Shown here: positions 845 through 64,000 of the stretch, one piece after another
Layout of the letters: each line of letters begins with the position of its first letter
How positions within the stretch are numbered: the first letter of the stretch is position 1
NCBI RefSeq assembly: GCF_011320225.1
Contig: NZ_JAAOEN010000001.1
Location: forward strand, 415,652-479,651
Direction: 5' to 3'
DNA length: 64,000 nucleotides
Source of the DNA: Phytoactinopolyspora limicola
GTDB taxonomy: Bacteria > Actinomycetota > Actinomycetes > Jiangellales > Jiangellaceae
Program-made: the position numbers and the translations under genes
Notes under the pieces: model-generated
The model's database searches: none
The model's input: only the letters and a program-made list of their open reading frames with translations
What the model was told of the DNA's origin: nothing

Positions 845-2209
845 ATGGCCACGTTGCTGCGCCTACCGGCTGTCGCCGCCGGATCGACCGAGGCGGTCCT
901 CCAGGACTGGTCGGTGAACGAGCACCAGGCGTTCACCGCCCTCGACGTGATCGCGACGGTTGAGACCGACAAGGCCCTGGTGGAGGTCGAGGCCGAGGCG
1001 GACGGTGTTGTCCTCAAGACGCTGGTGCCGGCCGGTTCCGTCGTCGAGGTCGGAGCACCGATCGCGGTCCTCGGCGAGCCCGGCGAGCAGGTCGACGACC
1101 TCAATACTCTGCTCGCCGACCTCGGTGTCGACATCGATCGACCAGCCCGGGCCGCCGAACGTCGCGACCTCACCGAGCCGGCTCCAGAACCAGCCGCCGC
1201 CCCGGATGGAGCCACATCGACCGCGGCACCACCGGCCACCAACGGGTCGGATCCGGAACCAGAGGACCCCGGCAACCGACGTATCTTCAGCAGCCCCTTG
1301 GCTAGACGGTTGGCCAGGGAGGCCGGCCTGTCCCTCGACGACATCACCGGAACCGGGCCACGCGGACGGATCGTCCGGCGCGACGTCGAATCCGCCATCA
1401 CCCAGCGCCAGGTACTGGACGCCCCGCAAGCACCCCCGGATCCAGCGGCGGGCACCAGTTCGTCGACGACCAGCGACGCACCTGGCCCGGAGGTGGAGGC
1501 CAGCACGTCGGCTCCCCGGGATCAGCCGGCCAGCACCCGTGTCCCGCACAGTCGGATCCGGCGGGCGACCGCCACCCGTCTCGCGGAAAGCAAACGCGAA
1601 GCGCCACATTTCTATGTACGCGCCTCAGCTCGGGTCGATGAGCTGATCACGTTGCGGACCCGGCTCAACGAGGTCAGCTCCGTCCGGATCTCGCTGAACG
1701 ACCTGGTGATCAAGGCGGTCGCCGTGGCGCATTCCAGGGTTCCCGAGATGAACGTCATCTGGACCCCCGACGCCGTCGAGACGTTCTCGGCCACCGACGT
1801 CGCTGTCGCCGTCGCCACCGACCGTGGTCTCGTGACCCCCGTGCTGCGCGGCGTCGACACGATGTCAGTGGGTGCGATCGCCGCCGCGAGCCGGGATGTG
1901 ACCGAACGCGCCCGCGCCGGGACGCTCCGGCAGGACGAACTCACCGGCGGCACCATCACCGTGACCAACCTCGGTATGTACGGTGTGGAAGAGTTCTCGG
2001 CGATCATCAACCCGCCACAGTCAGCCATCCTGGCCGTCGGCGCCGCACGGTCGGAGCCCGTCGTCGACGATGGCAAACTGAGCGTCGGGACGGTCATGCG
2101 GGTCACGGCGTCGGTCGACCATCGCCCGCTGGACGGCGTCGTAGCCGCCCGCTGGCTCCAGGTCCTCGTCGCCACCCTGGAGAATCCCCTCACCCTCGTC
2201 GCCCACTAG
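845..2209 (+). CDS. dihydrolipoamide acyltransferase (E2) of a 2-oxoacid dehydrogenase complex
   Basis: This 454-residue protein has the classic E2 layout. A single lipoyl domain (about 1-80) carries the ETDKA motif with the lipoylated lysine at residue 43. A Pro/Ala/Glu-rich linker follows, then a peripheral-subunit-binding domain near residues 145-180 (SSPLARRLAREAG, GTGPRGRIVRRDV). A second flexible linker leads to the catalytic chloramphenicol-acetyltransferase-like core, ending in HRPLDG with catalytic His426 and Asp430. It takes the acyl group from E1 and transfers it to CoA in the cytosol. The lipoyl domain is slightly unusual before ETDKA: the common GDxV turn is replaced by NEHQAF. 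The gene starts 3 bases after E1 beta. No E3 gene follows, because the repeat element at 2217 begins at once, so E3 must be encoded elsewhere. Confidence 0.95.
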   Translation: MATLLRLPAVAAGSTEAVLQDWSVNEHQAFTALDVIATVETDKALVEVEAEADGVVLKTLVPAGSVVEVGAPIAVLGEPGEQVDDLNTLLADLGVDIDRPARAAERRDLTEPAPEPAAAPDGATSTAAPPATNGSDPEPEDPGNRRIFSSPLARRLAREAGLSLDDITGTGPRGRIVRRDVESAITQRQVLDAPQAPPDPAAGTSSSTTSDAPGPEVEASTSAPRDQPASTRVPHSRIRRATATRLAESKREAPHFYVRASARVDELITLRTRLNEVSSVRISLNDLVIKAVAVAHSRVPEMNVIWTPDAVETFSATDVAVAVATDRGLVTPVLRGVDTMSVGAIAAASRDVTERARAGTLRQDELTGGTITVTNLGMYGVEEFSAIINPPQSAILAVGAARSEPVVDDGKLSVGTVMRVTASVDHRPLDGVVAARWLQVLVATLENPLTLVAH

Positions 2210-2565
2210 CCGTTGTGCACCTGATCTCCGTTTGTGCGCCTGATCGTTTGTCCGGCGACGATCAGGCGCACAAGCGATGGCGACGTTGCTGATAGACGTG
2301 TGGTGGCGTCGTCCGGTCATGGCTTGCGATGTGAACGACAAACGATCAGATGCGCAAACCGACACGACGGGGCGGAAGGTGCATCTGATCACCCGCCATC
2401 CACATATTGAGATAACGCTCTGTGGGTGTGGACTCGGTGGTGCTGGCTGGGATTGCCGCCAGGCGAAACATAGGCGTCGGGCTGCGCGATATATACCGCG
2501 AACGGCCGCACTGTGGCGACGTCGGGCCGGATGGGTGCCAGGTCCCGACGCGCTATCGCGCACTG

Positions 2566-2625
2566 CGCTACCGCCAGATGGCGTTAAGAGCCGGATTCGG
2601 GCCTTAACGCCATCTGGCGGTAGCG
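2566..2625. repeat. perfect 22-bp inverted repeat (hairpin core of the 2.2-kb element)
   Basis: The arms at 2566-2587 and 2604-2625 are exact reverse complements around a 16-base loop that is itself partly self-complementary. The core word is CTACCGCCAGATGGCGTTAA. The same hairpin, with 25-bp arms and one mismatch, recurs at 63857-63922, which makes it the best-conserved part of the element. There is no T-run, so a simple terminator role is unlikely. Confidence 0.75.
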
Positions 2626-2677
2626 GAGTACGGGGCCAGGGCAACACGGCCCCACGTCGCAAGGAAAGCGTGGTGAG

Positions 2678-2790
2678 TGTCCGGGCAACAACAAGGAGGC
2701 TCACCGCGGCATCCACCCCGGGCACAAGGACGCTTACTGTCACCAGGGCAACAACAAGCAGACTTACTGCAACCAACCGAGGGGTGGGAG
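2678..2790 (+). repeat. tandem short repeats with a Cys/His/Asn-rich reading
   Basis: Three imperfect tandem units of about 27-33 bp are built on GGGCAACAACAAGGA or GGGCACAAGGACGCTTACTG. Read in one frame they give repeats such as CPGNNKEAH, PGHKDAYC and QGNNKQTYC. The same motif in the same relative frame (CPGHNKDAYC) ends the window at 63971-64000. No start codon with a ribosome site precedes it, so it is listed as a repeat and not as a gene. It could be the remnant of a Cys-rich coding sequence carried by the element. Confidence 0.4.
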
Positions 2791-3134
2791 TCGTCGCAAT
2801 GTACGCCGACACCGACACCCGCGACGGGCGCGGCGAGCGCGATGGGCGCGCGGTCGATCAGATGTATGCACAGCTACCGCACACGTTTGCGACGCATCTG
2901 ATCGCCACGCGTCCACACTCAAAGACGCGATCAGATGCACCACACCGCGCCGCCCACCGCCGTTGGCACACCTGATCGCCCCACAGAAAACGATCAGGTG
3001 ACCAAACGGAGATCAGGTGCAGCCCCAGCCCGGGTTGGAAAGCTGCGGCGGATCACCGGAGCGTCTGATCGTCGTGCGGCGCGACGTAACCGCGGCCCTA
3101 ACGCCGGCGCCGCCATCCACGGGGTTGATCGAGG

Positions 3135-4085
3135 TCAGACGAGGTCGGACGGGTCCGTGTTGGCGCCGGACAGCACGACGACGACACGCTCCCCTTCCGC
3201 CGGGCGATACGCGCCGCTGAACAGGGCAGCGGCGGCGGTCGCCGGACCGTGCTCGACGGCCAGGCGGTATCGCTCCCACAGCCGACGGCGGGTGTCGACG
3301 ATCACCGCGTCGTCCACCAGAACCGAGCCAACACCGGTGCGTACCGCAACGTTGTAGGCGATGTCACCTAGGCGGGTGGCGCCGAGTGAGTCGGCGGCGA
3401 CCCCCGAGACGTCGACATCCACCGGGCCACCAGCAGCGAGGGCAGTGTGCAGGGTCGGGATCGCGGCCGGCTCGACGCCGACCACCCGGGCTCGACCCTC
3501 GACCGCCGCGGCCACCCCGGCCAGCAGTCCACCACCGCCGACGGCCACCACGATGGTGTCCACCGGCTGACCGGCCTGCTCCAGGACCTCCAGGCCCAGC
3601 GTGCCCTGGCCGGCGCAAATCTCCGGCTGGTCATACGCGTGGCAGAACAACGCGCCGGTTTCGTCGGCGCGGATGAGGGCGGCGGCGTAGGCATCGGCAT
3701 ACTTACGCCCCACCTGCCGGACGTCGGCCCCCAACGAACGCAGCTTCCTCACCTTGACCGGCGGTGCCGTCTCCGGCACGTACACCTCAGCGGGCAGCGA
3801 GTGGGAGGCCGCTGCATAAGCAACGGCCAAGCCGGCGTTTCCGCCCGAAGCTGCCACGACGCGGCCCTCGCCGGTTGCCAGCTCGCCGCGCTCGAGGGCG
3901 GCGCGGACGCGGTTGAAGGCACCGCGTACTTTGAACGATCCAGTGTGCTGGGCCTGCTCCAGTTTGAACCACAGGGGGGCCGACGGAGCCCACGGTCCGG
4001 CTTCGACCTCGAACAACGGGGTGCGCCGGATGAACTGGCCGATGCGGCTCCGCGCCGCCTGCACGTCGTTTGCGTCGATCACCAC
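3135..4085 (-). CDS. threonine/serine dehydratase-like PLP enzyme (fold type II)
   Basis: The 316-residue product belongs to the tryptophan-synthase-beta fold of PLP enzymes that dehydrate threonine or serine to 2-oxoacids and ammonia. The PLP-binding lysine sits in TGSFKVRGA (about Lys52). The glycine-rich phosphate loop is VGGGGLLAG, and the SGGNAG motif binds the substrate carboxylate. There is no C-terminal ACT domain, so it looks like the short, non-allosteric form. I place the start at GTG 4085, preceded by GGGGGA at good spacing; an upstream GTG at 4142 would only add a low-complexity leader. It stands alone between the repeat element and a gene remnant. Threonine dehydratase is the likely activity, but serine or hydroxyaspartate dehydratase cannot be excluded. 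Confidence 0.85.
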   Translation of the reverse strand: MVIDANDVQAARSRIGQFIRRTPLFEVEAGPWAPSAPLWFKLEQAQHTGSFKVRGAFNRVRAALERGELATGEGRVVAASGGNAGLAVAYAAASHSLPAEVYVPETAPPVKVRKLRSLGADVRQVGRKYADAYAAALIRADETGALFCHAYDQPEICAGQGTLGLEVLEQAGQPVDTIVVAVGGGGLLAGVAAAVEGRARVVGVEPAAIPTLHTALAAGGPVDVDVSGVAADSLGATRLGDIAYNVAVRTGVGSVLVDDAVIVDTRRRLWERYRLAVEHGPATAAAALFSGAYRPAEGERVVVVLSGANTDPSDLV

Positions 4086-4141
4086 ACCATGGTCCCCCAG
4101 GCGGACGTCAGCACCGTGCGCCCCCCGAGGAGCTGGCCTCA

Positions 4142-4445
4142 CCCACTTCGCGATCCTGGAGAACTACCGCGGGTTGCGCGAGCCGGACCAGCTGCGCTGG
4201 CTCGAACCGGACCTGGAGCTCAACGCCGCTGGCAAACAGGTGCTCGTCGTGACCCCCGTGCCGTGGAACGTGCCGCGGACACCAGCCGGATCACGTACCG
4301 CCCGCCCCTCGAGCTGACGTGGTCACGGCACACCGGCGATCATGGCAGGAACCCGAAATCAGCGCCGGACGGCACGCCTCAGGTGGTCTACCTCCAGGAA
4401 CGTCTGGACGGCTGGTTGGGAGCCGACCGATCCCACGTGGTGTGA
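4142..4445 (+). pseudogene. frameshifted remnant of an unrecognised gene
   Basis: This 300-bp stretch has no intact gene but shows coding-like, strongly GC-biased third positions in two successive frames. The first frame (about 4142-4270) reads HFAILENYRGLREPDQLRWL and ends near VTPVPWNV. After a shift near 4275 a second frame reads RPPLELTW and VVYLQERLDGWLG to a stop at 4443-4445. Neither part has a start codon with a ribosome site. I do not recognise the family. It lies head-to-head with the dehydratase gene and looks like the tail of a gene whose front was deleted. Confidence 0.35.
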
Positions 4446-63653: not shown

Positions 63654-63753
63654 GTCGTTTAGCCTGCGCTTGGTGGCGGTTCGCGGAGATCCCCCGAGAC
63701 CGTGAACCAACTCCCTCCTTCGGGGGACCCCCGGCCATCTCCCACCCCGTTGT

Positions 63754-64000
63754 GCACCTGATCTCCGTTTGTACACCTGATCGTCGCCACGAAACGATCT
63801 GTGAGTGTGGCGATGTCGGACCGGATGAGGGCAGATTCCCGGTGCTTCATCGTGCACTTCGCTACCGCCAGATGGTGTTAACGCCCGAATCTGGCCTTTA
63901 ACCCCATCTGGCGGTAGCGAAGTCCGGGGCTGGGCCGCACCGTCATCGCAGTGAGGGACGCGTGATGCTTTGCCCGGGCCACAACAAGGACGCTTACTGC
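63754..64000. repeat. repeat element, copy 2 (cut by the window end)
   Basis: The copy starts with the same terminal 30-mer (63754-63783; GCACCTGATCTCCGTTTG is identical). It then jumps to the GTGTGGCGATGTCGGACCGG segment, matching copy 1 near 2511 and so lacking about 250 bp present there. The hairpin (63857-63922, 25-bp arms, one mismatch) and the CPGHNKDAYC repeat complete the visible part. It supports the view that both are one mobile or repeated family. Confidence 0.75.

Follow-up and report, generated by a model that had tools for sequence, protein, structure and literature searches.

The closest described systems are BIMEs and REP repeats, which, in the passages of PMC2817692 and PMC3733652 devoted to them, consist of regularly spaced units in alternating orientation, occur in high copy number, are extragenic and often lie behind genes, and are species-specific and targets of IS elements. 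The repeat element analysed here resembles them in these respects; it differs in that its word is about 9 bp long and is not itself a GTAG-headed palindrome, each arm holds up to six words, and the arms form mirror pairs of 143–1466 bp. The same passages link BIME-like repeats to RAYT transposases, and Actinobacteria are not among the phyla listed in the passage of PMC3733652. CGTC repeats are, like the element, palindromic and without a known dedicated transposase; unlike it, they are short 8–9-bp stems tagged CGTC, without six-word arms (PMC3733652, in the part describing them). MITEs share with the element their inverted ends, the lack of a transposase and the many copies (PMC10969869, in the part consulted), whereas the element has neither a target duplication nor a parent that we could find, and its arms carry up to six words. 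Insertion of an IS into palindromic repeats also has precedents: for the REP-targeting IS1397, ISPsy8 and ISRm22, every found copy of one IS lay in one palindromic repeat family, and ISRm22 likewise sits at the symmetry axis of its repeat (PMC1525189, in the passage on these elements). The REP-targeting families named there are IS3, IS110, IS4, IS256 and IS5, and IS481 is absent from that passage. The IS found in copies of the present element differs from these in being IS481-like, in making a 14–15-bp duplication and in lying 22–23 bp from the word on either side, irrespective of the intervening bases. A literature search for an actinobacterial counterpart, or for an IS481 element targeting palindromes, showed none among the papers listed.

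The element in the window and its copies in the genome

The window is the whole stretch of 64,000 nucleotides that was analysed. A sequence-only reading had described in it an 804-bp repeat element at 2217–3020 with 30-bp terminal inverted repeats, and a recount bore this out with a shift of one base: the inverted ends at 2216–2266 and 2971–3021 (51 nt, 80% complementary) set the bounds given in Table 1, and the first 30 bases again matched at 27 of 30. The perfect 22-bp hairpin of that reading is present inside 35-nt arms, and its GATCAG/CTGATC words were confirmed as CAYCTGATC, which occurs 14 times in the window against 1.49 expected, a count of at least 14 being reached in none of 100 shuffles. 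The two copies hold 11 of these 14 words and the rest of the window 3. The second copy, placed by the earlier reading at 63754 with a loss of about 250 bp, also stood; its recounted start is one base earlier, copy-1 query bases 49–312 correspond to 21 bases in it, so that about 243 bp are missing, and it extends beyond the window end. Folded as RNA, 2205–3030 gave −443 kcal/mol (z = −14.8 relative to 20 shuffles). In the left arm of copy 1, word 4 is unrecognisable; the motif (C)CCCGTTGTG was found at many element ends, and the spacer between words 6 and 5 is occupied in other copies by an IS481-like element. The only Rfam matches, two to MIR5387, scored 30–32 bits, far below the cut-off of 69, and were read as chance matches to the hairpin; an over-long exact hairpin pattern gave no matches.

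Table 1. Features of the two copies and their surroundings, in window positions (> and <, word orientation)
Feature	Position	Strand	Basis or remark
Upstream open reading frame, which we take to be E2 acyltransferase-like	845..2209	+	stop codon ends 6 nt before element; relatives found
CCGTTGTG, resembling (C)CCCGTTGTG	2210..2217	+	between stop codon TAG 2207–2209 and first word
Copy 1, outermost words included	2216..3021	.	inverted ends; homology with copy C1:680051 stops at terminal word
Left arm, words 2218>, 2237>, 2260<, 2344<, 2382>	2218..2390	+	genome position C1:417869 onward
Internal perfect 22-bp hairpin of middle module	2566..2625	.	arms 2566–2587, 2604–2625
25-nt unit GGGCAACAACAAGNAGNCTYACYGC, two copies 63 bp apart	2683..2770	+	
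Right arm, full six words, from inside outward 2856<, 2895>, 2929<, 2969>, 2992<, 3011<	2856..3019	-	
Spacer between right-arm words 6 and 5, with GCTACCGCACACGTT	2865..2894	.	empty in copy 1
Convergent open reading frame right of element	3135..4142	-	stop 113 nt from element
Copy 2, left part	63753..64000	+	blastn, word map; window end cuts copy, genome continues

Searches covered the window's own genome (G000; 6.59 Mb, 40 contigs), four congeners (G001 to G004) and other genera, including G005 and G017. With 2200–3030 as blastn query there were at least 183 matches in G000, 20 in G001 and 6 in G004, and none in G002 and G003. The end motif GTGCACCTGATCTCCGTTT, allowing up to 3 mismatches, occurred in G000 93 times forward and 89 times reverse, 182 in all, against 0 for its reversed control pattern. 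The genome-wide search suggested along with the earlier reading therefore returned a many-copy family and clearly not, given 182 ends, two copies with poorly aligning ends. From these sequence counts the family is estimated at some 90–100 copies in G000. A stricter two-word pattern was found 122 times in G000, 4 times each in G001 and G005 and once in G004, and not at all in the remaining 18 of the 22 family genomes. The copies studied are 89 stretches of G000 (248,370 bp), drawn from 100 listed end motifs of the 182; two recognisable ends were present in 44 of the 89, giving 44 pairs, in one of which (C1:964653) the left end had been set 42 bp too far out. Copy 1 (C1:417869) and the copy at C1:680051 agree at 502 of 513 positions in the right-hand part, the match breaking off exactly at the terminal CACCTGATC, and differ in their left parts. 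Single arms without a mate are present in G001 and G005.

Layout of the arms and their likeness within a copy

Under the search rule used, the unit of the arm is a 9-bp word, N(A/G)(C/T)CTGATC, of which an arm holds up to six. It is mostly preceded by TG and mostly followed by G, and it is not self-complementary. Read inward from the outer end, the words are oriented > > < > < >, and this array was complete in 78 of 135 arms; among the other 57, some were cut by contig ends and others had decayed or extra words. The spacing in the 78 full arms was nearly constant, with steps of 19 bp (77 arms) and 23 bp (77 arms) followed, after step 3, by 33–35 bp (76 arms) and 38–40 bp (all 78). Step 3 itself fell into two classes about one helical turn apart, 38–40 bp in 40 arms and 49–52 bp in 37, with 60 bp in the remaining one. 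The second arm of a copy is the mirror image of the first. Two-ended copies measure 143–1466 bp (44 pairs), the two of 143 and 144 bp being almost one single palindrome, and folded copies pair largely end to end into giant hairpins. The middle region is variable; the type seen in the window consists of the 22-bp hairpin and the two 25-nt units. With up to 5 mismatches allowed in 24 bases, that unit was present in 32 of the fetched stretches, usually twice per stretch. Changes among 69 copies of it were distributed over codon positions as 95/44/20, a pattern that would fit third positions of a neighbouring frame; a peptide coded in the middle is not supported, as no frame was open across all 32 stretches.

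The two arms of one copy resemble each other more than arms of different copies do. Over the 44 pairs, left–right identity within copies exceeded that between copies in every 10-base stretch starting at base 10 or later; the ten bases before that hardly vary and are hence uninformative on arm pairing. The observed value was reached by 1 of 5000 shuffles for bases 10–20 and by 0 of 5000 for the nine later stretches, for example at bases 60–70, where identity was 0.62 within a copy against 0.34 between copies. Outside the word, agreement was slightly above shuffled values over the nearest 12 bases (4/5000 for each half), not above them over the nearest 3 (487/5000) and weakly above them over the 33 bases further out (158/5000). 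The class of the third step, 40 or 50, was concordant in 24 of 27 pairs (the shuffles averaged 13.0 and reached 24 in 1 of 10,000), and at C4:61889 both arms carry the same altered word, GGCAATCAGATG. The best match of an arm was its own partner in 22 of 88 cases and another arm in 66; for left arms alone the own partner was best in 10 of 44 against 0.6 expected. To judge from these comparisons, matched pairs spread as whole units, or else one arm was copied onto the other.

Several properties of this layout, namely terminal inverted repeats, small size, many copies and the lack of a transposase, are those of a MITE, and the element could be a classical one: a DDE transposon that suffered an internal deletion, its parent, which shared these ends and had a transposase, being either lost or hidden in a gap of the assembly. 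The long inverted ends, the size range of the 44 pairs and the high copy number argue for this, as do the gaps that 40 contigs leave and the one copy (C7:70129–71594) with a gene between its arms. Against it stands the target-duplication check that the sequence-only reading had proposed, which gave nothing clear: across the 44 pairs, at offsets 0–25 and lengths 2–12, the best z was 2.6 of 286 trials. The mateless single arms in G001 and G005 also speak against it, and so does the enclosed gene at C7, which is AbiEi-like and not a transposase and whose relatives elsewhere lack an end motif within 1.5 kb. In this 40-contig genome, no transposase gene lay between the arms of the two longest two-ended copies, and no mobilising enzyme or autonomous parent was found among the copies read. 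We regard descent from such a transposon as unlikely.

Two enclosed genes deserve description in their own right. Between the two complete arms of copy C7:70126–71597 lies a gene of 310 aa (L096:1251-2183) with AbiEi matches in PADLOC-DB and no Pfam or NCBIfam match; its paralogs match AbiEi_4 and DUF559. It was considered as the mobiliser and dropped, since the other 11 family matches, in nine places, had no end motif within 1.5 kb and showed scattered single near-words only. A pair in G001 (C23; L048:1879-2973) encloses a glyoxalase-superfamily gene and adjoins the same helicase gene as the C7 copy. By their sequences both enclosed genes look like neighbours or cargo, not mobilisers.

Membership in the REP/BIME group was examined in the same way. 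The element has the regularly spaced, alternating and extragenic units of a BIME in more than 100 copies (182 ends). Its word is not a palindrome, so that it lacks the 20–40-nt palindrome with a GTAG or CGTC head of a RAYT-type unit, and a search for the RAYT gene (Y1_Tnp, PF01797), positive in 5 of 14 control genomes, found it in 0 of the 22 family genomes. Because both of these RAYT-type tests and the MITE test for a target duplication came out negative, we file the element under neither. The earlier description of it as a non-autonomous MITE- or REP-like element holds for its kind, a high-copy inverted repeat with empty sites, but not for membership in either group, there being no target duplication and no Y1_Tnp.

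Position at gene ends and the corresponding sites in relatives

With genes called by a simple heuristic caller, and with random intergenic points of the window as control, the element lay mostly outside called genes and preferentially behind them. A gene 3′ end was faced by 101 of 130 ends (random, 558 of 1200), a 5′ end by 27 and neither by 2. Forty-two of the 130 ends lay 0–13 nt behind a stop codon (random, 50 of 1200) and 6 more within 25 nt, and at 15 ends the gene reads into the element without meeting a stop and terminates there, at the TGA within a word in 13 cases and at a TAG at the joint in 2. Together, 63 of 130 ends had a stop within 25 nt or inside the element, compared with 169 of 1200 random points (14%); the other 67 had no called stop within 25 nt. 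Twenty-seven of the 44 pairs lay between two gene 3′ ends (50 of 400 random points), and in 12 of the 44 both stops were within 25 nt or inside (2 of 400). Arms in G001 and G005 behaved similarly: all 8 with fetched surroundings faced a gene 3′ end, the stop being no more than 20 nt away for six and some 69 and 82 nt away for the others; the adjoining genes include two that are presumably metK- and icd-like.

Stop codons beside the element were often TAA. Where the stop lay 0–13 nt from the element it was TAA in 30 of 42 cases; where it lay more than 25 nt away it was TAA in 5 of 38, and among other called genes of the fetched stretches in 16 of 80 (Fisher p = 4e-8 against 30/42). At the junctions C34:453830, C12:677375 and C34:509440 all 6 stops in G000 were TAA, while a reading by eye of the same three junctions in G001 to G004 gave TAA at 0 of 18 stops, with 14 TGA and 4 TAG; this count omits the paralog-like rows L263 and L268, neither of which has TAA. 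We infer that insertion of the element caused the TAA stops beside it.

Sites without the element were found in the relatives. The element at C12:677375–677938 is absent in G001, where the convergent stops are 17 bp apart; at the junction C34:509440, G003 has 1 bp between the stops and no element; and the element at C7:70129 is absent in G004, which has about 50 other bases at the site. Between the aligned flanks of the C12 junction, G004 has 217 bp, G002 342 bp and G003 115 bp. These inserts (L252:1280-1500, L254:1740-2085 and L256:1745-1860, respectively) resemble other long palindromes or word arrays. The array word of G002, GGNGGGGAGGGAGAGNTC (up to 1 mismatch), occurs 13 times in G002, 7 times in G003, once in G004 and not in G000 or G001, its control being found once in all. 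These palindromes and word counts suggest that the sister species may have palindrome families of their own at such places, as judged from the sequence of the one junction compared. A pre-existing palindrome, CCCGTTGTGCACAACGGG, was considered as the insertion target and dropped on its counts: G000 had it at 10 places, each time with 3 mismatches, and the control at 2; the corresponding figures for G001 to G004 were 7, 7, 8 and 4, with 2, 2, 1 and 5 for the control.

The earlier reading had named as its alternative a region conserved in place. Absence of the family at the three junctions compared in detail goes against this, whereas an arm stands behind one helicase gene both in G000 (C7) and in G001 (C23), which goes for it. 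We take this gene to be of the UvrD/PcrA type, and the two arms may reflect inheritance or two insertions. A related explanation would make the copies host-made and non-mobile, serving convergent genes as bidirectional terminators or insulators and enlarged by local inverted duplications. Their position behind stop codons, their strong folding, the other long palindromes at the same junction in relatives and the shared helicase neighbour would all fit. Yet no intrinsic terminator (hairpin plus T tract) was found in 2100–3200 of the window, the family is missing at the three junctions, copies 98% alike stand at different loci, and the fixed spacing of the words exceeds what a terminator needs; we consider a host-made origin rather improbable. 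On the sequences at hand, the element is probably a non-autonomous, BIME-like mobile palindromic element, spread by an enzyme encoded elsewhere; mobility as a process we infer from its copies and the empty sites.

An IS481-like element at the words, and the proposed mode of spread

An unassembled IS was observed at 18 contig ends of G000, nine with each IS end (for example L026:1628-1776 and L013:1-130). At every one of the 18, counting outward from the IS, the nearest word begins at base 23 or 24 and points away from it; the IS sits at the midpoint of a divergent word pair. Seventeen of the 18 can be recognised as element copies from additional words or from the middle module; the C27 end has one word only. 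Five insertions could be paired, reading by eye, by a 14–15-bp duplication (C7/C27, C13/C18, C11/C19, C36/C16 and C2/C1 end). The remaining eight ends have near-identical spacers that allow no one-to-one pairing, and the C10 end, one of them, has a one-base mismatch to each candidate mate. Since the bases between differ, the position of the IS is set by the words, and the fixed distance at 18 of 18 ends argues that the words are functional, recognised sites. This geometry is independent evidence, at the level of sequence, for the words as recognised sites.

An assembled relative of the IS was seen in another genus (G017:C4; L278:1502-2841), lying centrally in a different, intergenic hairpin. 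It encodes a 404-aa IS481-type transposase and is flanked by a 15-bp duplication. PF13011 (LZ_Tnp_IS481), rve and rve_3 all scored above their cut-offs with this transposase, and NF033577 gave 220.4 bits, just below its cut-off of 224. The transposase of the G000 IS is unassembled, and its assignment to IS481 is judged from this relative. TGATC stands at base 27 from both ends of the G017 IS and at base 27 or 28 at the equivalents in G000; by an eye count, two remnant IS ends in G014 also have it at 27, and a weaker remnant in G001 (L277) has no TGATC in the 90 bases inspected.

Recognition of the words by the IS, together with the alternative third steps about one helical turn apart, would also fit a chromosome-organising or protein-binding array (methylation sites, or sites for gyrase or a nucleoid protein) that selection for binding would favour and recombination would spread. 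The pattern is, however, absent in two of the four congeners and nearly so in the other two, which speaks against a core cell function, and we hold such an array to be very improbable.

For a mobile element of the kind that we favour, we propose that a protein encoded elsewhere would bind the phased words of an arm and would cut at the element end or at the hairpin formed by the arms. Insertion would take place at convergent gene ends, where it would do little harm, and the inserted element would supply the stop codon, as TAA or as a TGA inside its own words. The arms would be kept alike if masters whose arms already matched gave rise to whole pairs; alternatively, template switching in the hairpin could transfer the sequence of one arm to its partner. 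As for the IS481-like element, it would be a passenger, using the words as a safe target. A bolder version would see here a new mobile DNA that homes to convergent stop codons by means of a dedicated, undescribed enzyme, turns both stops into TAA, keeps its arms identical by hairpin copying, and has counterparts in sister-species families at the same junctions; taken as a whole, it seems to us doubtful.

The IS yields a target rule. The element itself represents a dense BIME-like family in genomes without a found RAYT, with a far more rigid layout and, at some convergent stop codons, an exact placement. Either the job of RAYT would fall to another enzyme, or palindromes would be able to spread and to lodge at gene ends with no enzyme doing it. 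On the bolder version, if the sister species do carry their own palindrome families at the same junctions, the class of enzyme responsible would be common in this actinobacterial family.
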